Origin: a virus
IMG/VR virus record: IMGVR_UViG_3300004369_000161
Coordinates: 1 to 22,760 of that record
DNA: 22,760 nt
Strand: one strand, 5' to 3'
Shown here: positions 5,452-22,443 of the stretch, in pieces
Numbering within the stretch: position 1 is the first letter of the stretch
How the letters are laid out: the number at the start of each line of letters is the position of its first letter
Program-made: the position numbers and the translations under genes
The notes under the pieces: generated by a model
What the model saw: the letters and a program-made list of their open reading frames with translations, nothing else
Databases searched by the model: none
Told to the model about the DNA's origin: nothing

Positions 5452-6237
5452 TTAAATTAAGTCGGAAAGTCTTTTGTAGCGTTTTGCTTTTGCTAGTTGA
5501 TTCATTATATCATTTCTATCATCAATCTGTCCATTATCATCAACATCATCTTCATCTATACGCAATTTGTATGAACTTTGCTCTCCATCATAAACAACAG
5601 GAGAGTCTGGATGATTATCTACAATGTCCTTATATTCAATCCATCCTGTAGCAATATATTTTGTTTTAGTATAAACAGGATTTCCTCTATGAGGATGAGT
5701 GAAATGAGCAGGCCAAATAACTAAAGTTCCTTTTTTTGGTTTAACCCGAACACCTTGAAATAAAAATTCTGTCTCACCTTCACCTTCGGGAATATCATTT
5801 AAGTATAAAATCCAAGCAAGAACTCTTGATACTTCAGTTATACAATCAACTTCATAATGCCAAATATGATAACCTCCTTGAGGATAAGTCTTTTGTAGTT
5901 TTGTCCAGGGATTACAGTAATTGTTTATTTTAATATATTCTAATGAAAAATATTTCTGCTTATATAAATCAAAAGCTTCAAATAACCCATCGTTTATTTC
6001 ATCATACCACATTGTTTCCTCTAAACGATCTAAGTTTAAACAAAAATCATTTCTTTTCATGTTTCCGCCATAATTTTCTGGTGTACCCCAAACGGCAGGA
6101 ACTATTTCACCATCATTCTCCACAATTTTTGTTTTATTTCTTTCATGCTCATCAAACAAATTTAACAATTCATCACAAAATTCACCATCAAAAGCATTTT
6201 CATAGATACCAATAAATTGATTATATTCTTGCTTCAT
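5452..6237 (-). CDS. 2-oxoglutarate/Fe(II)-dependent oxygenase (prolyl-4-hydroxylase-like)
   Basis: The family couples oxidation of 2-oxoglutarate to hydroxylation of a substrate, often a protein side chain. The 261 residues show the double-stranded beta-helix signature: H127-Y-E129 as the HxE/D iron ligands, then LYLNDIPEGEGETEF (144-158), VKPKKGTLVIWPAHFTH (165-181) and distal His 181. Lys193 or a nearby residue is a candidate for binding 2-oxoglutarate. Glu replaces the more usual Asp, which is tolerated in some members. The C-terminus (about 208-261) is an acidic, Asp-rich tail (DEDDVDDNGQIDDRND) outside the core. The ATG shares one base with the upstream oxygenase stop (TAATG), so the two are coupled. 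Substrate unknown; neighbouring fibre proteins are candidates by position only. Confidence 0.88.
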   Translation of the reverse strand: MKQEYNQFIGIYENAFDGEFCDELLNLFDEHERNKTKIVENDGEIVPAVWGTPENYGGNMKRNDFCLNLDRLEETMWYDEINDGLFEAFDLYKQKYFSLEYIKINNYCNPWTKLQKTYPQGGYHIWHYEVDCITEVSRVLAWILYLNDIPEGEGETEFLFQGVRVKPKKGTLVIWPAHFTHPHRGNPVYTKTKYIATGWIEYKDIVDNHPDSPVVYDGEQSSYKLRIDEDDVDDNGQIDDRNDIMNQLAKAKRYKRLSDLI

Positions 6238-7670
6238 TATACTAACCAGGTAATAATATTATATCTATTCCCTTTAGTGACGGGCATAACTTCATGAGGA
6301 TACATGAAACTAGATGGGAACATTAAGATGTCTCCTTTTCTAAGTTTAATTTTAATCTTTCTACCAAAGAAAGCAAATTCCCCACCTTCATAATCATCAT
6401 TCAAGCAAATACTACAAGAAATAACTCTTGGATTTTGCTTAAAGTGATCTGTATGTTGAACATAGAATTGTCCTTCTCTATATCTCAAAAGTTCGTATCC
6501 AGTATCTTCTTCAATACAAAGACCTTCTTCTGGTGCAAATTGCTTTTCATACATATCAAGAGCAATATGAACGCAATTATATATTTCAGAGTCTAATCTT
6601 AAACGATAATCATGATTTTGAGCGATAATATCTTTGCAAGAAATACCAATAACATCACAATTTCTGGAGTTTTGATCTAATCCACCGCCAGTCATAGCGT
6701 GTCCCCAAAGATCAGTTGTGACGTACTCATTTAATATCTTATCACAAAGTTTCTCGGGAAGAATAGATTTATATACTTTAATATAATGATCAAGAGAAGG
6801 AATACCTGATTCTGCTTTACTATTCTCATCATCAAAACGGACAAAAGGAGAATCTTCGGGAGAAGAATCTTCTTCAATTAGAGTTACTGACTTTTCTTTT
6901 TTCTTTTTAAAAATACTTTCTTTTTTTGAAAGAATCTTAAGAATGTCGCTTTCGGTTTCTAATTTCATTTCAGTTACTGGGTCTGGAAGATCATTAAAGT
7001 TACTATTTTCTAAATCATCTTTATTGCACAAATATCCTTTAGCATACTTGTTAATTAGATTTTCAGGTACTGGTTTATCATTTTTTATTTCATCAACAAG
7101 AGCATCTATAATTACTCTTTCTCTCCTTGAAGAAGATTTATCTTTATCAAAATAAAATTCCCTACAAGGACCATTACTTCTTACATAATGTAGAAAAAAC
7201 TGTGCATACCAACTACCTTCAAATTCGTCTCTCCAATGAGGAGCTACGCATCCAAGATAAACCATCGCATCTCCAGGTTCTAGATTTACACAATGTGAGT
7301 TTCCATTTACATTTTCAACCCAAATTGACCAATCTTTATCACCACCTAGATTAAGAGTTAATGATATTTCACATGCTGGTCTATCTTTATGTTTTTCAAG
7401 AACAGATCCTTCTTTGTATATTCTACCATAAGTATATGTTGGAAGAACAGTTTCTCCAATAGCATTACTAACTTCAGGAGTAAGTTCGCATAAAAGTTCT
7501 AGTGCTTTTTTATAATTATAAACTGAGTGAGAATTTTCAGCTTGAGGATCACCAGCAAAGTTGATATCTTCAGAATCATCTTTGAAAGATAATCCAAGAT
7601 CGATTGCTTCTTCTCTATTTACCAGTTGTTTTAATACCAAAAAATTATTTTTTATTAGTTCATCATTCAC
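6237..7670 (-). CDS. Fused protein with two 2-oxoglutarate/Fe(II) oxygenase domains
   Basis: I place the start at GTG 7668-7670 because GAGG lies at ideal spacing upstream and no in-frame ATG is close; a TTG 15 bases further up is the alternative. The 477-residue product has two separate oxygenase folds. The N-terminal domain (1-180) has H94-K-D96, distal His 145 and the block LTLNLGGDKDWSIWVEN. The C-terminal domain (about 290-477) has H406-T-D408, SICLNDDYEGGEFAFFGR, a GDILMFPSSFMYPHEV block with His 459, and Arg 469 as 2-oxoglutarate ligand, like classic prolyl-4-hydroxylases. Between them is a low-complexity linker with KKKKEK near 255 and acidic/Ser-rich DSSPEDSP. The domains differ clearly, so this is a fusion rather than a recent internal duplication. 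Substrate unknown. Confidence 0.88.
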   Translation of the reverse strand: MNDELIKNNFLVLKQLVNREEAIDLGLSFKDDSEDINFAGDPQAENSHSVYNYKKALELLCELTPEVSNAIGETVLPTYTYGRIYKEGSVLEKHKDRPACEISLTLNLGGDKDWSIWVENVNGNSHCVNLEPGDAMVYLGCVAPHWRDEFEGSWYAQFFLHYVRSNGPCREFYFDKDKSSSRRERVIIDALVDEIKNDKPVPENLINKYAKGYLCNKDDLENSNFNDLPDPVTEMKLETESDILKILSKKESIFKKKKEKSVTLIEEDSSPEDSPFVRFDDENSKAESGIPSLDHYIKVYKSILPEKLCDKILNEYVTTDLWGHAMTGGGLDQNSRNCDVIGISCKDIIAQNHDYRLRLDSEIYNCVHIALDMYEKQFAPEEGLCIEEDTGYELLRYREGQFYVQHTDHFKQNPRVISCSICLNDDYEGGEFAFFGRKIKIKLRKGDILMFPSSFMYPHEVMPVTKGNRYNIITWLV

Positions 7671-7687
7671 TTTAACACCTCTCAAAA

Positions 7688-9515: not shown

Positions 9516-11069
9516 TTAATCAATACTGCAAACAATAACATCAATATACTGAAGTCGAAGAATAAATCCAGAAGGAAAAGTAAGATCATATTCATCACCA
9601 ATTAACGTACCATGATTATGAGTTCCTCCGCCAATAGCACCAACTAATGAAGTATTTGGTGCGTCTGTACCAACTTCACGAGCTTCACCACCAGGAACAA
9701 GTAGTGGTTGTCGATATGCAGAACTGTTAATAACTGGGTTTTGATTAGTAGATGGAGATCTTGCAATTGTTCTTCTATTTGCTACGACCTGAGTAATAGC
9801 TTGAACATTTGTGTTAGCAACTACTCTTGTAGTATTAGGTTGTTGCGTTGTTGTAGGTCTTCTTCTGTTTGCTGTTATTTGAACTGGATTAGGTTCTCGC
9901 GTTGTTGTAGGTCTTCTTCTGTTTCTAGTTGCTTGTCTTCCTTCTTGTGTTGTTTGAGGAAACTGCGCCACCTCCTGACGGTTTTGTTGTCTATTTTGAG
10001 GATTTTGTCTATTTTGAGGATTTGGCTGTGGGACAGGTTGTTGCTCGCTGTTGGGATTTTGGAATGATCTTGGATTTTGTCCTGTTGATCTTGGTGTTTG
10101 ACCACCTTGAGTTGTATTGGGATTTTGTCTATTAAAAGAATTTGGTGATCTAATTCTAGTACTGCGTGGTGATCGCGCACGGATGCGACCACGTCTTCTA
10201 CCTCTTCGACTTGTGGGGATTCTTAGTCTTCTATTTCCACCTCGAGGGCTTCGCCTATTAATTGGATTAGGTTGTCTTCTGTTGTCCTGACTTCTTCTAT
10301 TTTCGGGTTGTGATCTATTTACAGGCTGTGGGACAGGTTGTTGAACCGTAGTACTTTGCGGTACTCTTGTAGTATTTGGTTGTCTTCTATCTTGTCTTCT
10401 ATTGAGATCTCTACGGTTTACAAGTCCTTGGAGTGGTTCTCGAGTTGTTTGTGGATTTTGTCGGTTATCCGTCGAACGACGGTTTTCAGTTACTTGAGTT
10501 GTTTGTGGATTCTGAACATTTAAAAGGGCTCTTCTGTTTACTGGTTGTTGATATGCAGAAGGTTGTTGATATACAGATGGTTCTCTAGTTTGTCTGGGTT
10601 GCTGATATGCTGTTTGAACATTATTACTAATTCTTTCACTATAAAATCTCGTTGCAGGAGTTTGATAAAAAGTTGGAACTGGTGGACCAGATTCTACGTT
10701 AGTAGAACCTCCCGCACCATGAGAATGACCAGCCATCTGACTGATACTAATTGTAGTATTCTCAATAGAACCAACCGCAGTAAAAGGACCATCAGGAGAG
10801 ACTGGAATAGCTGTTGTAGTAAATACAGTTTCAAGATTGGGTTCAACAGTATTCACGAAGTTTCCACCAGATCCAGACACAACTTGAATAGCAGAACCCC
10901 CAAGATCAACAGGGGAACCTAATACTACTTTTGATGTTACTTTTGTCCAACCAGTAGGAGCTGCCGCTTGATAAAAAATCATTTGTTTACCTTGCGGAAC
11001 TATTCCATAGAAACTATTAAGAACGGAGCTGTCTCCAAATTGAATACCCGATGCTTGTAAAATAGCCAT
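9516..11069 (-). CDS. Tail-fibre/collar-type protein with a long Arg/Gln/Asn/Pro/Thr-rich insertion
   Basis: The ends of this 517-residue protein match the 174-residue neighbour at 11089-11613. Shared elements are the PTGWTKVTSK-type block near 38-47, VVSGSGGNF near 63-71, HSHGAGG (115-121), APNTSLVGA (470-478), HNHG (484-487) and the C-terminal LQYIDVIVC. HxH motifs of this kind bind metal in short-fibre and fibre-tip domains of T4 gp12 and gp37. Where the sibling has about 25 residues, this protein has about 340 (roughly 125-465) of low-complexity sequence. By hand count, residues 151-460 hold about 57 Arg and 38 Pro, with no Lys and few acidic residues, and a core of RGRRRGRIRARSPRSTR. The insertion is probably disordered. 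Good AAGGAG lies upstream. Most likely an adhesin or fibre tip; the role of the insertion is unknown. Confidence 0.85.
   Translation of the reverse strand: MAILQASGIQFGDSSVLNSFYGIVPQGKQMIFYQAAAPTGWTKVTSKVVLGSPVDLGGSAIQVVSGSGGNFVNTVEPNLETVFTTTAIPVSPDGPFTAVGSIENTTISISQMAGHSHGAGGSTNVESGPPVPTFYQTPATRFYSERISNNVQTAYQQPRQTREPSVYQQPSAYQQPVNRRALLNVQNPQTTQVTENRRSTDNRQNPQTTREPLQGLVNRRDLNRRQDRRQPNTTRVPQSTTVQQPVPQPVNRSQPENRRSQDNRRQPNPINRRSPRGGNRRLRIPTSRRGRRRGRIRARSPRSTRIRSPNSFNRQNPNTTQGGQTPRSTGQNPRSFQNPNSEQQPVPQPNPQNRQNPQNRQQNRQEVAQFPQTTQEGRQATRNRRRPTTTREPNPVQITANRRRPTTTQQPNTTRVVANTNVQAITQVVANRRTIARSPSTNQNPVINSSAYRQPLLVPGGEAREVGTDAPNTSLVGAIGGGTHNHGTLIGDEYDLTFPSGFILRLQYIDVIVCSID
9845..9924 (-). repeat. 26-bp perfect direct repeat, two copies 54 bases apart, within the fibre gene
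   Basis: Copies lie at 9845-9870 and 9899-9924. They encode NRRRPTTT in the low-complexity insertion, and the 54-base spacing keeps the reading frame. They suggest expansion by duplication or slippage rather than a regulatory site. Confidence 0.8.
9990..10025 (-). repeat. 18-bp tandem repeat (two units, 17/18 identical) within the fibre gene
   Basis: Units at 9990-10007 and 10008-10025 encode the repeated peptide NPQNRQ in the insertion. Unit length is a multiple of three, so copy-number change would preserve the frame. Confidence 0.8.
10024..10343 (-). repeat. 20-bp perfect direct repeat, copies exactly 300 bases apart, within the fibre gene
   Basis: Copies at 10024-10043 and 10324-10343 encode QQPVPQP twice in the insertion. 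The distance is a multiple of three. Recombination between them would delete 100 residues in frame. Confidence 0.8.
10543..10578 (-). repeat. 18-bp tandem repeat (two units, 16/18 identical) within the fibre gene
   Basis: Units at 10543-10560 and 10561-10578 encode (S/V)-(A/V)-Y-Q-Q-P type hexapeptides, and a third degenerate AYQQP lies just upstream in the protein. Frame-preserving unit length again suggests slippage growth of the insertion. Confidence 0.7.
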
Positions 11070-11088: not shown

Positions 11089-11613
11089 TCAATTAAAACG
11101 ACAAAGAATTACATCGATATATTGAACTGCTAAGTCTACACTAGCACTCCAAGGTACATTAGCTCCAGTAAATGGATGAGTGTGTGGTTGATTACCACCA
11201 ACTGATGATGTATTTGGAGCAGAATCTTGTGCTGCTCTTACAGTTACTCCAGGTCCAGGTCTAACAAAAACTTGACCTCCAGCTCCGTGAGCGTGAGAAG
11301 GTAATTCAGATTCAATTAAAGTATGTCCACCAACAGTTCCTCCAGTTGTAACACTTCCACTAACAGGAATTGTGTTAAAAACAGCTGTAAAGGGAGATCC
11401 TCCTGGTCCAGAAGCTCCACCAGATCCAAATCCACCACCAGTTCCAGATACAACTCTGAGTGCTTTATTATTGTGAGTTGTTATTTTTGTCCATCCAGTA
11501 GGAGCAGCAGACTCAAAAAACACAGTAACACTATTCTGCTCAATAATATCATACTTTGAGTCTAATTGAGTAGCATCGGAAAATAAAATACCATCAACAT
11601 TTAATACAGACAT
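11089..11613 (-). CDS. Tail-fibre/collar-type structural protein with HxH motifs (174 aa)
   Basis: This is the compact form of the family to which the 517-residue neighbour belongs. It begins MSVLNVDGILFSDATQLDSK, then has APTGWTKITTHNNKALRVVS (36-55), a Gly-rich segment, SHAHGAGG, APNTSSVGG, PHTHPF and a C-terminal VQYIDVILC. The HAH and HTH motifs resemble the metal-coordinating HxH elements of T4-type short and long fibre tips, so a trimeric receptor-binding or collar domain is likely. About 200 residues or fewer is usual for this family as I recall it in cyanophages. A GATAAATA late promoter lies 26 bases upstream, and AGGT precedes the ATG. The next gene starts 19 bases after its stop. 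Confidence 0.85.
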   Translation of the reverse strand: MSVLNVDGILFSDATQLDSKYDIIEQNSVTVFFESAAPTGWTKITTHNNKALRVVSGTGGGFGSGGASGPGGSPFTAVFNTIPVSGSVTTGGTVGGHTLIESELPSHAHGAGGQVFVRPGPGVTVRAAQDSAPNTSSVGGNQPHTHPFTGANVPWSASVDLAVQYIDVILCRFN

Positions 11614-11652: not shown

Positions 11653-12306
11653 TTAAACAGCACACATATTAAAAGAAATTGAAATTCTATCTCTACCAGT
11701 TTTGTTAGGCGCAACATAATGTAAAAAATGTGCAGGGAAAGCAACCATGAGACCAGTTTCTAACTGAACTTCATAATGACACTGATCACTTGTACCATTA
11801 AAAGTATCCAAGAATAAAGAAGGATCATGCCTGACCAGATACAAGTCTCCCATGTCTTCTTCATGAATAGGATAATAGACAACTATAATATCAGTTTTTG
11901 GATGACTGTGAAGAACATTATAATCGTTACCTGAATTTATATTTACCCAAAGATGTGCAGATTCTTGATCATAAACACATAAAGATCCCATATCTTTAGA
12001 GCATTCATTAGTAAATTTTACTGCTCTACATCCAATATCATAAATGTATTTTAAATCATGTCGAAAAATAGCATCCGTTAAATTACGAACGCCACTCTGC
12101 CATCCACCAACATTTGACCTCTGTACTCCATCAGAATCAAGTTTTTCTCGATAAACATAACAATCTTCGATTATTTCATCATTATTTATTTCATTAGGAA
12201 AAGCAGTCCAAACTTTAGTTGGAAATATTATTTCTGAAACACAATCATCGAAAGTAATACTATCATAATCAGGTTCTTTCGCTCCTCTATGTGCATGACT
12301 AGTCAT
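11653..12306 (-). CDS. 2-oxoglutarate/Fe(II) oxygenase-like protein (HxH type)
   Basis: I chose ATG 12304-12306, which has GGAG 8 bases upstream and overlaps the upstream stop by 8 bases; a GTG 21 bases earlier is less likely. The 217-residue protein shows the late-family beta-helix pattern NVLHSHPKTDIIVVYYP with H133-S-H135 as iron ligands, then GLMVAFPAHFLHYVAP (185-200) with His 193 or 196 as distal ligand. DRISISFNM follows, with Arg 207 as a probable 2-oxoglutarate contact. An HxH in place of HxD, and the ending SISFN, match the putative oxygenase family I know as TIGR02466/PF13759. Activity and substrate are unproven. It lies immediately before the fibre-type genes. Confidence 0.8.
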   Translation of the reverse strand: MTSHAHRGAKEPDYDSITFDDCVSEIIFPTKVWTAFPNEINNDEIIEDCYVYREKLDSDGVQRSNVGGWQSGVRNLTDAIFRHDLKYIYDIGCRAVKFTNECSKDMGSLCVYDQESAHLWVNINSGNDYNVLHSHPKTDIIVVYYPIHEEDMGDLYLVRHDPSLFLDTFNGTSDQCHYEVQLETGLMVAFPAHFLHYVAPNKTGRDRISISFNMCAV

Positions 12307-12994
12307 TGTCTTTACTCCACTCTTCACTTGTAAAAAATAACACTTGATTAACCCTCACTTCATCAAACCATCGATCATTTTCTATAGCCATTCCATGTTC
12401 ATATTTAAATCCATCAAAAGCAACCATTCTGTTATACTTAGATTTGAAAGCGGCAATTCTCTTCCAATAAGATTTATCAACCCACGGTCTCATATGCTCG
12501 GAAACAGTATTTTGAACTGTATCTGGTTTTAATTCCCTATACAAGTTTGTACCAAGTTCAGTACCATCTTCGCACTTGTTTAGATAAACAATCGCATTAT
12601 ATCCACCATCACAGTGAGGCCACCACCAATTATTTTTATAATCATTTATTTCTCTAGATTTTTCATCTTTGAAAAAAATAGTGTGATTAGTAACTAGATT
12701 TCCTCTATCAAATGTTTTTTGACCAAAAACATCAGAAAGTGCATCATGAAGTTCTGAAAGACTCGAGGTGGGAACATTGTCCCACCTTCTATCTTCAAAA
12801 TACTTATTATTATAAGTCTTTTTCATAAATTCTTCATCACGTTCATCATGTTTCCAGAGAGGTGGTTTTTCTTTTGTTATGTGTTCATAAACTTTATCAG
12901 GATACTTATAAAAATTATCCATCCAATATATTTTAGAATCTTCAAAAGACTCTACACGCATATTGGATAGATCGTTATATTCCCAGATGTTCAT
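12299..12994 (-). CDS. 2-oxoglutarate/Fe(II) oxygenase-like protein (HxD type)
   Basis: The 231-residue protein has NNWWWPHCDGGYNAIVYLNK (121-140) with H127-C-D129 as candidate iron ligands, GTELGTNLY (144-152) as the following strand, and NRMVAFDGFKYEHGM (188-202) with His 200 as distal ligand. Arg 214 in VRVNQVLFF is the likely 2-oxoglutarate contact. The pattern resembles a family of phage and bacterial proteins once called DUF6445, thought to be oxygenase-related. The first 100 residues (Tyr, Trp and charged) have no recognised match. Its stop overlaps the start of the next oxygenase-like gene by 8 bases, so the two are coupled. The substrate is unknown. Confidence 0.78.
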   Translation of the reverse strand: MNIWEYNDLSNMRVESFEDSKIYWMDNFYKYPDKVYEHITKEKPPLWKHDERDEEFMKKTYNNKYFEDRRWDNVPTSSLSELHDALSDVFGQKTFDRGNLVTNHTIFFKDEKSREINDYKNNWWWPHCDGGYNAIVYLNKCEDGTELGTNLYRELKPDTVQNTVSEHMRPWVDKSYWKRIAAFKSKYNRMVAFDGFKYEHGMAIENDRWFDEVRVNQVLFFTSEEWSKDND

Positions 12995-13381: not shown

Positions 13382-13579
13382 CTATTTATTATACAATTCA
13401 TCAATCTTTTTTTCAAGCCTAAGAATTTCTCCTCTTAAAAAAACTTGATTATCTTCTACTCTATCAATTCTTTCGTTAAGACATCTAACCCAGTCATACA
13501 GAGTAGCTTCATGCTCCCACGTTAGTTCTGGTTGAGGATCAATTAACATATAAAATATTTTTTTTATTTTTTTAAGCAT
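13382..13579 (-). CDS. Small hypothetical protein with basic N-terminus and C-terminal helix (65 aa)
   Basis: The start at ATG 13577-13579 is preferred because GAGAG lies 9 bases upstream; an ATG nine bases earlier is the alternative. The 65-residue protein begins MLKKIKKIFYMLIDPQPELT, where the first 14 residues could be a short amphipathic or membrane-contacting helix. Residues about 32-65 form a heptad-like helix (LNERIDRVEDNQVFLRGEIL). The pattern LYDWVRCLNERID suggests a conserved small phage protein, but I cannot name it. It overlaps the upstream oxygenase gene by 8 bases. Its stop TAG lies inside the late promoter of the next gene. Confidence 0.7.
   Translation of the reverse strand: MLKKIKKIFYMLIDPQPELTWEHEATLYDWVRCLNERIDRVEDNQVFLRGEILRLEKKIDELYNK
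13383..13390 (-). promoter_or_regulatory. T4-type late promoter variant (AATAAATA)
   Basis: AATAAATA (7 of 8) on the minus strand lies 23 bases before the ATG of the acidic/Lys-rich gene, with GGAA between. It overlaps the stop codon of the upstream gene, as the promoter at 22475 also does. Confidence 0.5.
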
Positions 13580-14156
13580 AAAATACATCTCTCATTTTAT
13601 TTCTTGATATACAGAATCCAAATACCCATAAAATTCTATTTGTTAATCCTCTAGTTAAAGTTACTCTATGTTTCACTTCAGAAACTGGATAACATAATAG
13701 ATCTCCAGGATCTACATCATATTCAATTCCATCAATTACTGTAATACCACCACTATCAGATTTTTTAGTTATGATATTACAGTGCATCGTGCATGTATTT
13801 TCATAATAAATGGGATCAATGTGCTCTTCTATCAATCCTTTCCCAAATCCTATTCCATTAACTATTCCATTATAAAATGGTGGAGGAAATTTGAATTCAT
13901 CTAATTTTAATTCTTTTATGATTCTGTCTTGTATCATATAAGATACAAGTGGATAATCTATTTTAACATCAGTATTAGTATAGTTTTGATGTTGCTTTAA
14001 CCTAGTTGTAAATCTACTTCTAGGGTGATGAGAATCCATATTAGGATCATGATACTGATGTGGATTCTCTTTAAAATTAGAAAGCGACCACCAATTTAAT
14101 ATACCAATCTCTGTATTATCTGCAAATTTCTTTATTACTTTAACTAGATTCTTCAT
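13572..14156 (-). CDS. 2-oxoglutarate/Fe(II) oxygenase (HxD type, 194 aa)
   Basis: The 194-residue protein has the compact form of a 2-oxoglutarate oxygenase. Signature elements are GKGLIEEHIDPIYY (106-118) with H112-I-D114, then GGITVIDGIEYDVDPGDLLC (136-155), SEVKHRVTLTRG with distal His 163, and Arg 174 in LTNRILWVFGF as the probable 2-oxoglutarate ligand. The VDPGDLLCYP block is typical of the family. Its N-terminal 60 residues are Asn/His-rich (NPHQYHDPNMDSHHPRSRF). The start overlaps the stop of the upstream gene by 17 bases, and no clear ribosome-binding site is seen, so translational coupling is likely. Substrate unknown. Confidence 0.82.
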   Translation of the reverse strand: MKNLVKVIKKFADNTEIGILNWWSLSNFKENPHQYHDPNMDSHHPRSRFTTRLKQHQNYTNTDVKIDYPLVSYMIQDRIIKELKLDEFKFPPPFYNGIVNGIGFGKGLIEEHIDPIYYENTCTMHCNIITKKSDSGGITVIDGIEYDVDPGDLLCYPVSEVKHRVTLTRGLTNRILWVFGFCISRNKMRDVFYA

Positions 14157-14805
14157 TCGAATTTGTAGAAACTTTTATATTAAAAGAAATAGTAATTTTA
14201 CCAGATTTTACAGGTGGAACATGATGAGGCAAAGCACCAGGAAATAATATAATATTTCCTTCACCAATATCAAATTCTTTTGACTCAGACTCACTGAAAG
14301 TATGTTTACCTTCAACAGTGAATATTGAATTTTGATCGAAAAAATAAGTATTTGAATAATTTGGATCATCCAAGATATAAATTCCAGAGAACTCATAAGG
14401 ACGATGTACATGGATATCTTGATAATGTCCAGTGTCGTACTTATTATACCAAATATCTACAAGTTCAGACTTAATAAAATAATTAAAATCTAAATCATCA
14501 ATTTGATTTTGATCAGCAAGTGTGTTGAGCATCTCATTAAAAGCTACCCAAATAGCATCAACTAATTCTGGATGTGTGAATAGATCATTATTGATGGTAG
14601 AAATATTTTCATCATAACAATGAAATGAAGATACCATATCGCATCCCCAATTACTCATCTTCAAATAAGTTTCCTTATTTTTATACAGATCAGTTTCAAT
14701 CATTGGAAGCACTTTACTTTTTATTTCCTCATGATTATTTGGTTTTCTCCAAAAAATAAATGGGGAGGGGAAAAAGCAAATTCCACCTTTAGCTTTCTCG
14801 GTCAT
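14140..14805 (-). CDS. 2-oxoglutarate/Fe(II) oxygenase-like protein, tandem paralogue 2 (HxH type)
   Basis: The start is ATG 14803-14805; a TTG two codons upstream is unlikely. The 221-residue protein shares an ordered set of blocks with the gene at 14789-15436: SPFIFWRKPNNHEEIKSK (14-31), LVDIWYNKYDTGHYQDIHVH (115-134) with H132-V-H134 as iron ligands, SGIYILDDPN, FDIGEGNIILFPGALPHHVP with His 194/195, and GKITISFN. HxH followed by SG(V/I)Y and the ISFN ending match the putative oxygenase family TIGR02466/PF13759. The gene overlaps both neighbours by exactly 17 bases. Function in the phage is unknown. Confidence 0.82.
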   Translation of the reverse strand: MTEKAKGGICFFPSPFIFWRKPNNHEEIKSKVLPMIETDLYKNKETYLKMSNWGCDMVSSFHCYDENISTINNDLFTHPELVDAIWVAFNEMLNTLADQNQIDDLDFNYFIKSELVDIWYNKYDTGHYQDIHVHRPYEFSGIYILDDPNYSNTYFFDQNSIFTVEGKHTFSESESKEFDIGEGNIILFPGALPHHVPPVKSGKITISFNIKVSTNSNEESS

Positions 14806-15436
14806 AATCAAAATTAAACGAAAGAGTAATTTTTTTGTTTTTTACAGAAGGAACATAATGTGGTAATCTGGAAGGAAAAAATAAGATATATCCCTCTCCA
14901 ATTCCCAGTTCTCTAGAATTTGACTTTCTAAAACAATTTTTTGTATCGGATCCAAAGACAGGATTTTCGTTAAACCAATATGTATTATTGGGTTCCAAAT
15001 CATCCAATACATAAACTCCAGAAAATAAGCAGGTATCATGATTATGAGCTTCCTGATATTCTCCTATCTCATAATAATTATACCACAAATCATCTAACAC
15101 AGCATTGTGATATTCTTCATATTCGATTTTACTGATCTTATCAGTTTTCAATAGACCGTCGAGCATTGAATAATATGATTCCCATATTGTGCTTGATACA
15201 AGATTATCATCAAGAATATCTGTTATCAAATCATAACTCGTTGTATCCTTACCAAATATAGAAGACGTACAACAATCTTCATCCCAAGTTTTGGAAGATA
15301 ATTTCTTTAATGTATTTTTATTTTTTTCATAATCATCAACGATTGGTTGTAACCATTTTTGTTTTATCTCATCATGGTTTTCTACTTTTTTCCAAGAAAC
15401 AAAAGGACTAGAAAAATGAAAAAAACTTGTCGTCAT
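14789..15436 (-). CDS. 2-oxoglutarate/Fe(II) oxygenase-like protein, tandem paralogue 1 (HxH type)
   Basis: The 215-residue protein is clearly homologous along its length to its downstream neighbour. Matching blocks are SPFVSWKKVENHDEIKQK (10-27), LDDLWYNYYEIGEYQEAHNH (114-133) with H131-N-H133, SGVYVLDDLE, GIGEGYILFFPSRLPHYVP with His 193, and KKITLSFN. Two adjacent Cys (CC near 55-56) are absent from the paralogue. Iron binding by HxH plus the distal His is expected from the family; the reaction is unknown. Its ATG overlaps the upstream stop as ATGA, and its 3' end overlaps the next gene by 17 bases. Confidence 0.82.
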   Translation of the reverse strand: MTTSFFHFSSPFVSWKKVENHDEIKQKWLQPIVDDYEKNKNTLKKLSSKTWDEDCCTSSIFGKDTTSYDLITDILDDNLVSSTIWESYYSMLDGLLKTDKISKIEYEEYHNAVLDDLWYNYYEIGEYQEAHNHDTCLFSGVYVLDDLEPNNTYWFNENPVFGSDTKNCFRKSNSRELGIGEGYILFFPSRLPHYVPSVKNKKITLSFNFDYDRES

Positions 15437-16146
15437 GCTATAACCTCATTTCCACCACTTGTAACGACTTTCATATTCCAAGAGCAAATTAAACGTTCTT
15501 CATCAGATACATTTGGTATCGTATAATGAACGATTGGAGAAGGAAAACAAAGGAGAGATCCTTCCTCAACAAAATCTGGAATATATTCAGAATTGCATCC
15601 AAAAAAAGATGTAAAGAAAGGATTTATGAAAACAGTTGGTCTGTGTTTGCTATTGTTAAAATTCACATATAAAACACAACTATAACCAGTCGGTCCATGT
15701 GTGTGCGGTCCATGAAAAGATCCACCAGAAGCTCCTTCAAACCAAGAATTATTCATTTCAAAATAAAAGTTTGTATCGTCATCAGAACAATACTCATCAA
15801 AATCAAAATCGTTAAAACTATTTTCACATAAAAGCATGTTCTCAAGAACCACAATCTCTTCTTCTAAGATATTGAATAGATCTTTACTATAACAACTACC
15901 ACTCGCTCCATTATAATGGTAATCCGTAGTAACATCTAATCTATCACCTTTTCTTGCATTTTGCCTTGAATTATTATGCAATCTAAGAAGTTTTTGTTTT
16001 TTATTTTTCCAGTCACGAACTTTTACATGAGTTAAAGGAACCTGAAATGCAGAATATAGAAAATCACCTTCATCATTAAATGGTTCTACTTCTTGAATAT
16101 GTTCATTTTTTCTATGTTTATACGCATGAATGATAATATCACTCAT
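15433..16146 (-). CDS. 2-oxoglutarate/Fe(II) oxygenase-like protein (HxH type, divergent)
   Basis: The 237-residue protein is a more distant member of the same HxH group. FHGPHTHGPTGYSCVLYVNF (144-163) provides H148-T-H150, GSLLCFPSPIVHYTIP (196-211) provides distal His 207, and ERLICSWNM gives Arg 218 as a probable 2-oxoglutarate contact. An N-terminal extension (about 1-70) is basic and His-rich in places (HAYKHRKNEH; WKNKKQKLLRLHNNSRQNAR) and has no match that I recognise. ATGA contacts link it to the genes on both sides. The substrate is unknown. Confidence 0.78.
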   Translation of the reverse strand: MSDIIIHAYKHRKNEHIQEVEPFNDEGDFLYSAFQVPLTHVKVRDWKNKKQKLLRLHNNSRQNARKGDRLDVTTDYHYNGASGSCYSKDLFNILEEEIVVLENMLLCENSFNDFDFDEYCSDDDTNFYFEMNNSWFEGASGGSFHGPHTHGPTGYSCVLYVNFNNSKHRPTVFINPFFTSFFGCNSEYIPDFVEEGSLLCFPSPIVHYTIPNVSDEERLICSWNMKVVTSGGNEVIA

Positions 16147-16419: not shown

Positions 16420-19400
16420 TTAATCGTCATAATCAAATAGAGCTGCTCCTCTATATCTACTTCCACCATCATCAGTAACAAACATGAATAAATGAGTTTT
16501 TGAAGTGTTGATAATTGGAGCTTGATCCTCTGGGAACTTAACCTCAGAAGGCCAAGTAATTGTACCAGAAGTATGAGTAACTTCTAAAGTAAATCCATAA
16601 ACAACACCACTAGGTGCATTCTCAAATGTAAATGTAGTATTTCCATTTACGGTTACTGTGAAATAATTACCTTCAGAGCAATCAACTACCGTTGATGTTC
16701 CTAGTCCAACAATGTTTTGATCAACTGGAGCAAGGATAGACAACTGATTATTAACAGTAAGATTATCAGTCTGAATAGTTGGTAAAGTAGAAATACCAAT
16801 AGAGTTAATGTTTGCTACTGTAGAGATACTTCCAGTAATAGAAGCATTTCCAGAAGCAGTAACGTCAACAGAAGTTAGATTCTGTAAATTAACATCTCCA
16901 TTGAAAGTAACTGTATCATCATTATAGGGGTGAGAGAATACAACGAAGTTTACACCAGAAGATCTTCTATAATAAGAAACAGTATCTGCTTCTTCACTAA
17001 TTGCAAAAGAAGGAGAAAGGTTTCCATTATAGGAAATACCACCACCTCTTTCTGCTCTAGATCCTATCTGAATGTATCCAGTTCCCTGAACATTACCATA
17101 TGCTTCAAATCCTGCGTTATTATTATCACCACTTAGAACTTTAATTGTTCTATTTGTAGAATCTGATGTGCTACCAGCAGAAATGCTTCCTGCAAAATTA
17201 GCAGTTGTATTTGTAAATGTGGTAGTGTTTAATTCAGTAGCAATAATTGTACCAGAAACGGTTGCTGTATCAACTTCAAGACCATTGAATACCTGAATAC
17301 CTTCTCTAAATACTGCATCATCATAGAATGTAGAAACTCCAGTAGTTGCAATAAATCCACCATTAGAGAATAATGTTTCATTAGAAACTATATTATTATT
17401 AAACGTAGAAACTCCAGAAACAATCAAGAATTCTGGTTCAACAGAACTAGAATAGAATGTAAGTGTTCCAACTCCAGAATTAGCATCAACTGTTCCTGTA
17501 ATTGAAACACCTGTTCCTGCGAAGTTGATATTTGTTGCAATACCTAGATAAGTTCCACCGTAAGTTGTAAGTCCAACGTTCTTGGATAGTGGTAATCCTT
17601 GATCAGAAAGTAATCCAAAATCTTCCCAAATATTATCAGCAGTGTAAACCCATCCAAGAGTTCCACCACTATCGGGTTGAGAGTTAATAACAACATCTCC
17701 AGGGTTTCCAGCAGCAGTTGGTTTAGTTGGGGAGTTTGTATACTTTCTAGAGATTTTATTCTCACCTTGCATGAAGAGAGACTTCAATTCAACACCATCA
17801 TCTGAAGAAGATGTTAGTTTCTTATTCAGAATTACTGGTCCATCAAATTCAGAAGTAATGTTTTGCTCAGGACCACCTTCAACTTTTAGTGATCTTGTAA
17901 TAGTAATTTCGGATGATACTTGAGCATCAAATCCTGCCTGATTACCTGTAGTAACATCTTGACCAGTAATGGTAATAATAGGAGCATCAAATACATCTTC
18001 TCTACCAGTTGTAGAGTTGAGTTTCTTATTACCAATGAAGAAGTTACCATCACTATCCATCGCAGTAAATGCAACGAGACCACCATTCTGCTTGTTAGCC
18101 TGTGCAATAAAGATCTCTCTTTGATCAAGAACTCTATCTTGTCTTTCAGGTAGACCTGTAGAATAGTTACCAGGACCATATCCAAGATATTCAAAAGTGT
18201 GTCCAGATGCACGAATAATGGAATTTCTTCTCAACTCCATTGGAAGTGGTTTGATTTTTCTAACAACAGAATTAGCATCATGTAGAGATCTCTTAGTTCC
18301 AAGAGATCCTCTAAAGACAGTTATAGGATTACCATCAACACTTTCTTTAATTCTGAAAATTTCATCATCGATCTGTAAATAATCACCAAGTTCTAAATCA
18401 TAATTTGTTATGTCGGTAATTCTAATGGTTGTCGCATCTTCAGATGTTATAGCATTTTGCAATTCTGCACTTATTCCATCATAAATCTCAAATAATCTAC
18501 CACCAACATTTTGATCTAAGATGTTAACAAGTCCAGCTCTAGAAACAAAACCATTTCTATATGCATAAATTGTTCCTAAAGCATCTGGTACTGTTGTTCC
18601 AACTCCAACATTAACTTCAAAAGAATTCTGACCTGTAACTCTGGTAATAATGTGATTTTTATTATACCCAGAGTAGTTAGCACCGCTAAGTCGAATCTTG
18701 TTGTCTTCGGATAATCCATGATTGTTAACCGAGGTAAAACTTACAACACCAGTGATATTATTATAAGATAGAGAAGAAATACCAATGGTGGGTCCAAGTA
18801 AATAAGCTTTTGATTTAAGTAAATCAGTTGCACCAACACCAATTGAATTGATTCCTGATAACGTATCTACAGATTCAACAAAAATTTGCTTATCACTTTG
18901 AGTTGTGATACCAGTAATACGATAAAGAGTGTTATATTGCTTATAAGAATCTCCAATGTCTGTAATATACAGAGTGTCTCCCGTATTATCGTAAATAGAA
19001 TCAACCGTTACAACAGCAGTAGAGAATCCTGCTGTTGTTGCAGTTCCAGTTACCTGTAACTCATCGCCAACGGAATATCCTTGACCACCATCTATAATTT
19101 TAATTCCAGTTAATGATCCAGTTCCATCAATAGATACTACACATGTAGCATTTGTACCATAAACTGTTGCAGAAGATCCTGTTAAAGTTGCATTATAGAT
19201 AAGAGTTCCACTTCCAGAACCATAACCAGCACCAGGACTATCAATACTTACTTTAGTAATTCTATTAAGTCCATGCTCAACTTCTGTAAAGATTGTGTGA
19301 GCAATACCAGTACCAGTTGTAGTAGCTGTAGAAACAATATCAGTTATTGCAATACCAATATTAATATCATCATATAATCTAGTAACAGATTCTTTTGTGA

Positions 19401-22400
19401 TGCTCTTCTGCACATCATTAACAATAACATTACCAATTAAATTAGATTCTGAAAAACAAGTTGCAGCGTCTGGATCCGATTGTGGGTTATCCTTGTTTAT
19501 CTGGGGATATAAGAACTGAACAGGTTGAACATACCTATCACTATTAAACGGCGAAACAATAGGTTTATTTGAAGCAATCAATAAAATTAAGTGATAGACA
19601 CCATCTTGCTCATCCTGAATGTATCTCTGAATTTCTTCTGAGCGATAGATTACATATGTTCCAGGGAGTTCATACTTAGAGAAATTAGGTAGATTAGAAT
19701 CTCTTGTTGAAGGATCACTAGTAAATGTACCAGGATCTGTAGTTAATTCGTAAGTAAATGTTTTCTTATTAGGAATTGTACTTGCAAAGAATATACCATT
19801 AAATCCTACAGCATCCTCTCCTGTAGTATTACCAGTACTCTTTATAGATTTAACTTGTACAGTATCACCAACAGTCAAATTATGAGGAATTTCTGTTGTT
19901 ACTGTTACTGTATTTGTTGACCAAACAGCGTTTGCAATGAACCTGGGATTTCTAAGTTCTGCACTATCATTTAGAACTTTTGAAGAAATACTATAATACT
20001 TTTCATTTTCAGTATCTGATCCAGTTACATCAGCTGATTCTTGAAGAACATATCCTTCAATCGGAGGTCTGGACCTAATAGGATTATCTTTTGGAATTAC
20101 ATATCTTACTCGATAAATTCTATCTAAGAGTCCTCTAGTATCAGGAGTTCTTGTGAAATATGATCTTGGAGTAGCGTCTGAAGTTAAATTAGCAATCAAA
20201 CCGTAGAGATCATTATTAGAGGTTTCTGCAGAAACAGAAATGTACCACTGTTGATTAGAAGCATCCCATTGAATAGGATGTCCAGTATCTCCAGGTTTTT
20301 TATCAGATACTCTTGAAACAACTTTTACAGTACTTGTCTCATTAGAATATATTGTAGATTCTTGACCAATTACTGCATCATTTAGTGTTTTTGCAACTTG
20401 AATTTGATTTGCAGATAAATCTTCAGTGATTGCATAATAAATTTGACCATTGATCAATCCATCTGGAATGTGTCCAGTATCACTTAAAATTCTTATAGAT
20501 TCGCCAGTTTCAAATGTATGATTTTCTGTAAATGTAATGATATTGGATGAAATCTCATTAGAAATACCATTCGACTTTTTAGTTACAGTAAACTCTTTTT
20601 CATAAGAAGTTTCTGTACCAGGCATCACAATCTTCGCAGAATATGTAGATGTGATACCTGCGTTAAAAATATCAACTTTTATTGTATCGTCTGGTTTTGC
20701 ACCTAGTCTATATCCATCAATAATACTAGTAGGTTTAATAGTCTCTATATTTTGTTCATAAAGATATAAAGTAGAAGTTGTTCCAACACCAGCAGTTCTT
20801 GTTACATCAAGAGAAACAAATTCAACGTTTACATCATCAGAAATATTTTCTTGTGGTGGAATAACATGAGTAATATATCCAACGTCATCTCTTTGGAATG
20901 CTTCTGCACGGAATCCTCGAGCAACAAGAGATTTTGCACCAAAGTTAGAGTTAGAGTTGGTGATAGAAAGATCTCCACCGGATTCAGCTAAGAAATGAAC
21001 TGCATAACCAATACCAAAGACAGAAACAACCTGAATGATTGCATTATTGCTTGCCTTGATATGATAGTTTTCATAAGAAGGTTTATATCTCGCATTTGAA
21101 TCACTAAACAGGTTTGCTACTGTTGTAGAGTCTTCATATGTTCCTGTGGTATCATTATACTTGATAAAGGCATTATTATCTTTTTGCAGACCAATTCCAG
21201 TGAACTGAGCCACAACCATTGACTTAAATCCATCTGCTTTATCACCATCAGCGTGCATACCGCACACGCCATAAACGGATCTTAGAGATACGTTAAAGAT
21301 ATATGGTGATGCTGAAGTAACAGTATCAGTAACAATAGTAAGTGTTGCACCAGCAATATCAGAAATAGATGGTAAAGGAGTTAATGGAGAAGAAGTTGCT
21401 TTATATTCTATTTCAGTATCACTGTTCTTTTCACTAATAACAAACTGTCCAGTATATCCATTTACAGAAACATTTGAAATTTGAATTGGAGTGTCTACAT
21501 CCAATCCATCAAGAGTTTCGGTAAGAGTTACTGTAATAATATTAGAAGATGTTTCTCCATCACCTGCTCTAATACTAGAAATTCCAACTGTAGCACCTCT
21601 AGATCCTACAATTCTATATTCATCAATTTTAGTTTCAATGTCTAGTGGATCACCAACAGTCTCTGGTTCAATTTCTCTACCAGAAGTAGTACCATAGACA
21701 TCACCAATTTTCTGATAGTAGATATCAAGATCAGAAGTTTCAGATTCGTAAATTAAAAATTCATCATTGATATTAACTGCATTCTTACCATCGGCATACT
21801 CAAAGCAAGTAAGCTTATGGTGAGAGAAATTAGGAATAAATGTGTTAGTAGTGTAATCTTTATAACAAATCGCATTTGGATCAGCATCAAATAAAGTAAA
21901 CTGCCACATGTAACATGCACCAGTTACACGGAAAATAGCGGATCTTTCAATATCATCATTTTCTGGATCAGGAACATATCTTGGTCTGATCTTTGTCTTT
22001 CTTAGATCAAGACCAACAATAGAAGTACCACGGGGGACAATAACACCACCATAAACACTATTAAGTTTGTAAAGAATGTTGTCTTCAGATAATAAATCAA
22101 AATTAGTATTTCTACCAAGAGGAGAAAGATTGTTTGTTAACTCTCCAGCTCTTGTGAAGTATTCGCCACTAACTTCCGATGTAAGAAATCCTGGTCTATT
22201 ATCAACAATATGCTCACCAGGATACAGCAAGATTGTTGTTTTTCCGAATCTATCGTTTTCTCTTCCTTCCTGATAAGAGAATCTAGCAGACTCCATCAGT
22301 GCTCTTTGAATAGTTTTGAAGGGTCTTGCTAAGGAGTTACCCTGATTTTCAACACTATCCGTAGAGTTTAAACTGGAAGGATCTACATAAAGGATTTCTC

Positions 22401-22443
22401 CTTTGGTATTCTTGAGAAAATTATCTAAGCGACTAAGACCCAT
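16420..22443 (-). CDS. Very large virion structural protein, tail-fibre/baseplate type (2007 aa)
   Basis: The N-terminus (MGLSRLDNFLKNTKGEILYV, then RPFKTIQRALMESARFSYQ and a GEYFTRAGELTNNLSPLGRN block, 1-250) is a highly conserved start of a very large structural protein in marine T4-like cyanophages. Residues about 450-530 look like a beta-helix region. The middle is beta-rich with repeats of the form H-x-L-x-x-G-(D/E)-x-(V/I) near 643, 851 and 1245, and Gly-rich stretches near 1075 and 1123. Many GVST/GIST motifs follow about 1600. The last 90 residues (VDCSEGNYFTVTVNG, then THTSGTITWPSEV and HLFMFVTDDGGSRYRGAALF) match a C-terminal domain found on cyanophage tail fibres. A GATAAATA late promoter lies 31 bases upstream. 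It is most likely a baseplate-attached fibre or side structure; exact place in the virion is unknown. Confidence 0.88.
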   Translation of the reverse strand: MGLSRLDNFLKNTKGEILYVDPSSLNSTDSVENQGNSLARPFKTIQRALMESARFSYQEGRENDRFGKTTILLYPGEHIVDNRPGFLTSEVSGEYFTRAGELTNNLSPLGRNTNFDLLSEDNILYKLNSVYGGVIVPRGTSIVGLDLRKTKIRPRYVPDPENDDIERSAIFRVTGACYMWQFTLFDADPNAICYKDYTTNTFIPNFSHHKLTCFEYADGKNAVNINDEFLIYESETSDLDIYYQKIGDVYGTTSGREIEPETVGDPLDIETKIDEYRIVGSRGATVGISSIRAGDGETSSNIITVTLTETLDGLDVDTPIQISNVSVNGYTGQFVISEKNSDTEIEYKATSSPLTPLPSISDIAGATLTIVTDTVTSASPYIFNVSLRSVYGVCGMHADGDKADGFKSMVVAQFTGIGLQKDNNAFIKYNDTTGTYEDSTTVANLFSDSNARYKPSYENYHIKASNNAIIQVVSVFGIGYAVHFLAESGGDLSITNSNSNFGAKSLVARGFRAEAFQRDDVGYITHVIPPQENISDDVNVEFVSLDVTRTAGVGTTSTLYLYEQNIETIKPTSIIDGYRLGAKPDDTIKVDIFNAGITSTYSAKIVMPGTETSYEKEFTVTKKSNGISNEISSNIITFTENHTFETGESIRILSDTGHIPDGLINGQIYYAITEDLSANQIQVAKTLNDAVIGQESTIYSNETSTVKVVSRVSDKKPGDTGHPIQWDASNQQWYISVSAETSNNDLYGLIANLTSDATPRSYFTRTPDTRGLLDRIYRVRYVIPKDNPIRSRPPIEGYVLQESADVTGSDTENEKYYSISSKVLNDSAELRNPRFIANAVWSTNTVTVTTEIPHNLTVGDTVQVKSIKSTGNTTGEDAVGFNGIFFASTIPNKKTFTYELTTDPGTFTSDPSTRDSNLPNFSKYELPGTYVIYRSEEIQRYIQDEQDGVYHLILLIASNKPIVSPFNSDRYVQPVQFLYPQINKDNPQSDPDAATCFSESNLIGNVIVNDVQKSITKESVTRLYDDINIGIAITDIVSTATTTGTGIAHTIFTEVEHGLNRITKVSIDSPGAGYGSGSGTLIYNATLTGSSATVYGTNATCVVSIDGTGSLTGIKIIDGGQGYSVGDELQVTGTATTAGFSTAVVTVDSIYDNTGDTLYITDIGDSYKQYNTLYRITGITTQSDKQIFVESVDTLSGINSIGVGATDLLKSKAYLLGPTIGISSLSYNNITGVVSFTSVNNHGLSEDNKIRLSGANYSGYNKNHIITRVTGQNSFEVNVGVGTTVPDALGTIYAYRNGFVSRAGLVNILDQNVGGRLFEIYDGISAELQNAITSEDATTIRITDITNYDLELGDYLQIDDEIFRIKESVDGNPITVFRGSLGTKRSLHDANSVVRKIKPLPMELRRNSIIRASGHTFEYLGYGPGNYSTGLPERQDRVLDQREIFIAQANKQNGGLVAFTAMDSDGNFFIGNKKLNSTTGREDVFDAPIITITGQDVTTGNQAGFDAQVSSEITITRSLKVEGGPEQNITSEFDGPVILNKKLTSSSDDGVELKSLFMQGENKISRKYTNSPTKPTAAGNPGDVVINSQPDSGGTLGWVYTADNIWEDFGLLSDQGLPLSKNVGLTTYGGTYLGIATNINFAGTGVSITGTVDANSGVGTLTFYSSSVEPEFLIVSGVSTFNNNIVSNETLFSNGGFIATTGVSTFYDDAVFREGIQVFNGLEVDTATVSGTIIATELNTTTFTNTTANFAGSISAGSTSDSTNRTIKVLSGDNNNAGFEAYGNVQGTGYIQIGSRAERGGGISYNGNLSPSFAISEEADTVSYYRRSSGVNFVVFSHPYNDDTVTFNGDVNLQNLTSVDVTASGNASITGSISTVANINSIGISTLPTIQTDNLTVNNQLSILAPVDQNIVGLGTSTVVDCSEGNYFTVTVNGNTTFTFENAPSGVVYGFTLEVTHTSGTITWPSEVKFPEDQAPIINTSKTHLFMFVTDDGGSRYRGAALFDYDD

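Follow-up and report, generated by a model that had tools for sequence, protein, structure and literature searches.

A degenerate hexapeptide repeat with an arginine-rich core interrupts a predicted cyanophage tail-fibre protein encoded among 2OG-Fe(II) oxygenase genes

Results

The window analysed here, a stretch of viral DNA of 22,760 nucleotides, carries two adjoining fibre genes on its minus strand, one encoding a protein of 517 residues (9516..11069) and the other a short paralogue of 174 residues (11089..11613). The aligned N-terminal ends of the two proteins are 37% identical over residues 1–132. HxH motifs are located at residues 115 and 484 of the 517-residue protein and at residues 107 and 144 of its neighbour; the distance between the motifs is 366 residues in the former versus 34 in the latter, a gain of approximately 330. 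The long protein has only these two HxH motifs, which bracket the insert, and none was found along the arms of the insert.

The 517-residue protein itself matched no family in Pfam or PHROGs, and nine of the 29 members of the insert family matched phrog_5795, named “tail protein”. The ends of the protein match both the short paralogue and the solved tail fibre 9qgo: the short-paralogue profile aligned with 9qgo over the collar, across the first HxH motif and on to the second (E = 4.5e-8), and the insert-bearing profile aligned at E = 3.1e-5. The collar region and the surroundings of both HxH motifs are shared with 9qgo, whereas 9qgo lacks the hexad insert and spaces the corresponding motifs about 50 residues apart. 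Judged from these matches, the 517-residue protein is a tail-fibre protein of the collar type. It belongs to a T4-like cyanophage and is probably homotrimeric, and its insert occupies the position expected of a distal tip. These results bear out the preliminary description of this DNA, which had proposed a fibre-type protein that aligns at its ends with the 174-residue neighbour and has gained a large insertion between its HSHG and HNHG motifs.

The insert (residues 118–458; 9696..10718, minus strand) contains 59 Arg, 41 Pro and no Lys, and its net charge is +45. Our recount of residues 151–460 gave 57 Arg, 38 Pro, 48 Gln, 37 Asn, 34 Thr and no Lys, in exact agreement with the earlier hand count for Arg, Pro and Lys. 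The Arg-rich core that had also been reported is real, with 15 Arg in the 36 residues from 276 to 311 (RGGNRRLRIPTSRRGRRRGRIRARSPRSTRIRSPNS; 10137..10244, minus strand).

The insert consists of degenerate six-residue repeats. Its identity at lag 6 gave z = 6.4, a value reached by none of 500 shuffles, and z was still 5.4 against tripeptide-block shuffles. Period 6 was absent (|z| ≤ 1.3) from the N- and C-terminal ends of the same protein and from seven other proteins of the window. Typical repeat units are YQQPxx, FRQPRN and NRRxxx. The repeat was present in all of the first ten homologues tested, which in combination gave z of about 20 at lag 6 and 17 at both lag 12 and lag 18; their hydrophobic residues were positively correlated at lag 2 and negatively at lags 1 and 3, the pattern of beta strands. 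The fibre gene still contains two tandem arrays of 18-bp units, making it plausible that the insert grew by duplication of a six-codon unit. The label “low-complexity” in the preliminary description understated the order of the sequence, and “protamine-like” is apt for the central core but not for the remainder of the insert.

Searches of viral contigs and phage records revealed about 30 distinct insert-bearing relatives, one of them in the cultured Synechococcus phage S-SCSM1; a further 80 or so loci, near-copies counted, have a pair of short fibres with no insert. Across the relatives, the insert is 252–358 residues long and contains 12–33% Arg, Lys is rare to absent, and the period is weaker in the most diverged members (lowest z, 2.7). 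Nine of the 26 proteins that were aligned have an insert of exactly 261 residues. In the S-SCSM1 subclade, to which these 261-residue inserts belong, insert identity equals or exceeds that of the N-terminal end. In the wider subclade of the window, the insert can diverge faster, as between L004 and L006 (59% identity in the insert versus 88% in the ends). Scans with insert-only peptides returned almost no matches beyond the query, and a generic DNA pattern of [QHR]QP at every sixth residue was discarded, as it returned mostly unrelated low-complexity proteins. On the evidence of these sequence searches, the insert belongs to no known domain. The preliminary description had asked whether an insertion of this kind recurs in many relatives as a known domain; it recurs with its composition in many relatives, but not as a known domain.

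The S-SCSM1 homologue, SSCSM1_245 (“short tail fiber protein”, MK867354), shares the gene order and insert position of the window locus, is surrounded in our scan by six related 2OG genes, and is 34% identical to the window protein over the matched parts. Its insert (261 residues, z at lag 6 of about 8, 29% Arg) is shorter than that of the window. Term searches of the S-SCSM1 paper (PMC9602691) found no mention of the insert. The GenBank notes of S-SCSM1 tag several structural proteins as virion proteins; SSCSM1_244, the short paralogue, is among them, and SSCSM1_245 is untagged. These tags presumably reflect the published mass spectrometry of S-SCSM1, which detected 45 proteins. SSCSM1_245 yields only six tryptic peptides of 7–30 residues and could therefore have been missed, so the missing tag is weak evidence.

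AlphaFold2 with the family alignment predicted that residues 139–196 (outgoing arm; 10482..10655, minus strand) and 395–452 (returning arm; 9714..9887, minus strand) of the window protein form an antiparallel hairpin of 58-residue strands, with block pLDDT of about 63–82. The pairing has a constant i+j of 591, so that the apex falls around residue 295, within the Arg-rich core. In the relative L150, the strands paired as four distinct ladders whose i+j values (485–487) agree on an apex at residue 243, next to the Arg core of that protein; pLDDT was lower than in the window protein, mostly below 65. Both models are monomeric, were built from 26–29 sequences, most of them in common, and are poor overall (mean pLDDT, 44–45; pTM, 0.17–0.18); the collar was not confidently modelled. 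Residues 196–395 of the window model had pLDDT below 50, leaving the central 200 or so residues unpredicted, and these may be disordered. Foldseek matched the model to no solved fold in the PDB, and its sole match in BFVD was the S-SCSM1 homologue.

Independent of the models, the peak of Arg density lies midway between the HxH motifs. Where the Arg peak is clear (22 sequences), the lengths of the N- and C-terminal arms around the peak co-vary (r = 0.96), with a mean asymmetry of 0.6 ± 7.5 residues over HxH-to-HxH lengths of 275–381; r falls to 0.33 over all 29 sequences, those with no clear peak included. Since the 22 sequences are related and not phylogenetically independent, the correlation is supportive rather than decisive. 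A register test for Pro opposite aromatic residues was not above shuffles for the window protein and L004 and was above them for the other seven proteins scanned. The window insert is also of higher polarity than beta-structured fibres usually are. A left-handed beta-helix was considered, given that period 18 is also strong; the AlphaFold2 models gave hairpins instead, although a helix could still be formed.

The window has eight genes of the 2OG-Fe(II) type, all on the minus strand, to either side of the fibre pair. Two lie at 5452..6237, with prolyl 4-hydroxylase 5c5t as its best solved match (E = 2.9e-5), and at 6237..7685 (PF13640), the one cluster member that also stands beside most insert-free fibre pairs. 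The others lie at 11653..12327 (PF13759), 12299..12994 (phrog_1644), 13572..14156, 14140..14811 (PF13759), 14789..15436 (PF13759) and 15433..16146 (phrog_81). Of six arrayed 2OG genes compared with Pfam, five gave a clear match to a PF13640 or PF13759 domain; the 12299 and 13572 genes are called 2OG-like from PHROG or S-SCSM1 annotation only, their S-SCSM1 homologues being annotated as 2OG-Fe(II). The 13572-type gene was found among phage records in S-SCSM1 only.

The 2OG genes are linked to the insert. Among loci with sufficient flank, 5–8 such genes were counted at 15 distinct insert-bearing loci versus 0–2 at 22 distinct insert-free loci. In a reciprocal search from the 13572..14156 enzyme, every cluster in which the second fibre gene is whole carries the insert; the exceptions were four less closely related enzymes with different gene neighbourhoods, where the available sequence includes no such fibre gene. 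In a tree built from the downstream enzyme that the loci share, all 26 insert-bearers formed one clade (support, 100/99). The association therefore counts as a single evolutionary event, and a repeated joint origin of the insert and the 2OG array found no support.

Several minor observations concern these genes. The 12299..12994 family occurs in 89 cyanophage records under the PHROG name “minor coat protein”, which is probably wrong, given its place within the 2OG array and its annotation as 2OG-Fe(II) in S-SCSM1. Residues 10–218 of the 6237..7685 protein match PHROGs named “ferrochelatase”, yet resemble a second 2OG domain. The more distant 13572-type enzymes stand alone in L354–L357, and the copy in L356/L357 lies amid genes that read as glycosyltransferase-like. 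In L008 (9427–10684) and L050 (3777–5034), two overlapping frames both match the 5452-type hydroxylase, reflecting a tandem copy or a frameshift. Upstream of the cluster, 16420–22443 encodes a tail-fibre protein of 2007 residues (phrog_529).

Discussion

Our analysis suggests that the insert of this fibre is a distal needle that contacts the receptor with a polycationic tip, a reading that includes the hairpin, the trimer and contact with LPS and that we prefer by a modest degree of confidence. The loop between the two HxH motifs would have grown, probably by duplication of an 18-bp unit, into a needle of hexapeptide repeats. One arm would run outward, the chain would turn within the Arg-rich core, and the second arm would return antiparallel to the first; this long hairpin with its apex at the core is a prediction of the AlphaFold2 models. 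In a trimer, the arms would form a six-stranded beta needle whose distal end bears about 15 Arg from each chain. The exposed Arg tip could then engage the cyanobacterium electrostatically through its anionic outer surface, either LPS or exopolysaccharide.

The tip of T4 gp37 offers an analogy. In gp37, an out-and-back needle extends between HxH motifs, and the head that contacts the receptor is distal. The HxH motifs and head domain of gp37 have been discussed previously (PMC11705849, PMC5221442); the top surface of the head contacts LPS, and replacement of Tyr953 by Arg broadened LPS recognition (PMC5221442). The insert resembles this tip in being sited between HxH motifs and, at the low overall confidence of the two models, in its predicted out-and-back beta needle. 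In contrast, the arms of the window protein have hexad repeats in place of HxH motifs, and its apex is Arg-rich. Repeated HxH iron sites of the gp37 type do not occur along the window needle, which has only the two flanking HxH motifs, and a profile comparison with gp37 by hhalign detected no sequence kinship (probability, 0.2%; E = 0.39). By analogy, the fibre may work like gp37, although the sequence does not support its being gp37.

In a rival reading that starts from the preliminary description, the insert is a disordered, positively charged loop on the receptor-binding tip that adheres without specificity to LPS, exopolysaccharide or nucleic acid. The extreme composition and the net charge of the insert, the low pLDDT of its central 200 or so residues and its faster divergence than the ends in pairs such as L004 and L006 are consistent with such a loop. 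However, the period of six with its strand-like alternation, the symmetry of the arms, the length fixed at 261 residues in nine diverged proteins and the conservation of the insert in the S-SCSM1 subclade argue for an ordered repeat, as do the paired strands of the AlphaFold2 models. We thus consider disorder of the whole insert unlikely; it may apply to the central part.

Two further explanations are less attractive. The alternation of Arg with Ser or Pro in the core would suit binding of nucleic acid or phage DNA in the manner of a protamine, for example in packaging or injection. This role is very improbable, as the insert is borne on a tail collar domain, its gene adjoins that of a tail-fibre paralogue, and its arms are hexad repeats rich in Gln, Asn, Pro and Thr. 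The two tandem arrays would also be expected if the insert were a functionless, neutral expansion of the 18-bp unit, but the insert has been kept across a deep clade with its length conserved in one subclade, Lys is nearly excluded, the core is Arg-rich and the repeats are in frame. We give neutral expansion scarcely any credence.

The needle reading is compatible with an added layer, in which the insert serves as a substrate array: its regularly spaced Pro residues (or Arg or Asn) would be hydroxylated in the course of infection by the 2OG-Fe(II) enzymes encoded nearby, stiffening the fibre or creating sites for glycosylation. We put this forward tentatively, as a proposal more likely wrong than right. 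The excess of 2OG genes at insert-bearing loci, the fact that a search from the 13572..14156 enzyme leads back to clusters with the insert in every case that covers the fibre locus, and the resemblance of the downstream 5452..6237 enzyme to prolyl 4-hydroxylases are in its favour. So is L131, in which two 2OG genes likewise lie downstream of an unrelated hexad protein of the FQQPYG type. Against it, the linkage is a single event in one clade, the 12299..12994 family is widespread in cyanophages, and L126 and L133, two contigs with FQQPY-type proteins, have no PF13640 or PF13759 gene. The support for hydroxylation of the insert is therefore circumstantial. Searches of the literature collection used here that paired tail fibres with phage prolyl hydroxylases or with proline hydroxylation found nothing pertinent. 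The fuller scheme, in which the phage finishes its own adhesin because its hydroxylase cluster modifies the hexapeptide needle into a hydroxylated, Arg-tipped receptor-binding fibre, is doubtful. Such a fibre would loosely resemble the hydroxyproline-rich adhesive and cell-wall proteins of eukaryotes.

This study describes what appears to be a new type of phage fibre tip, a hexapeptide-repeat needle with an Arg apex and a predicted hairpin, in a family of about 30 relatives that spans a deep clade of marine cyanophages and has one member in culture. It also bears on the 2OG genes of cyanophages. S-SCSM1 has 24 of them (PMC9602691), and the reason for such large sets of 2OG-Fe(II) oxygenases in some cyanophages, like the substrates of these enzymes, is an open question (PMC9602691). 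The co-occurrence of the enzyme cluster and the repeat makes this question testable; if true, hydroxylation of an adhesin would give the expansion of these genes a concrete substrate.

The FQQPYG-type proteins are different marine phage proteins, encoded at 1–310 and 945–3059 of L131, 7951–9330 of L126 and 1274–2692 of L133. They share six-residue Pro/aromatic repeats with the insert but are built on another scaffold, with no collar or HxH motif seen, and are not Arg-rich. A tblastn search with them gave no match among phage records. In L126, the gene of this type is followed by a radical SAM-SPASM gene.
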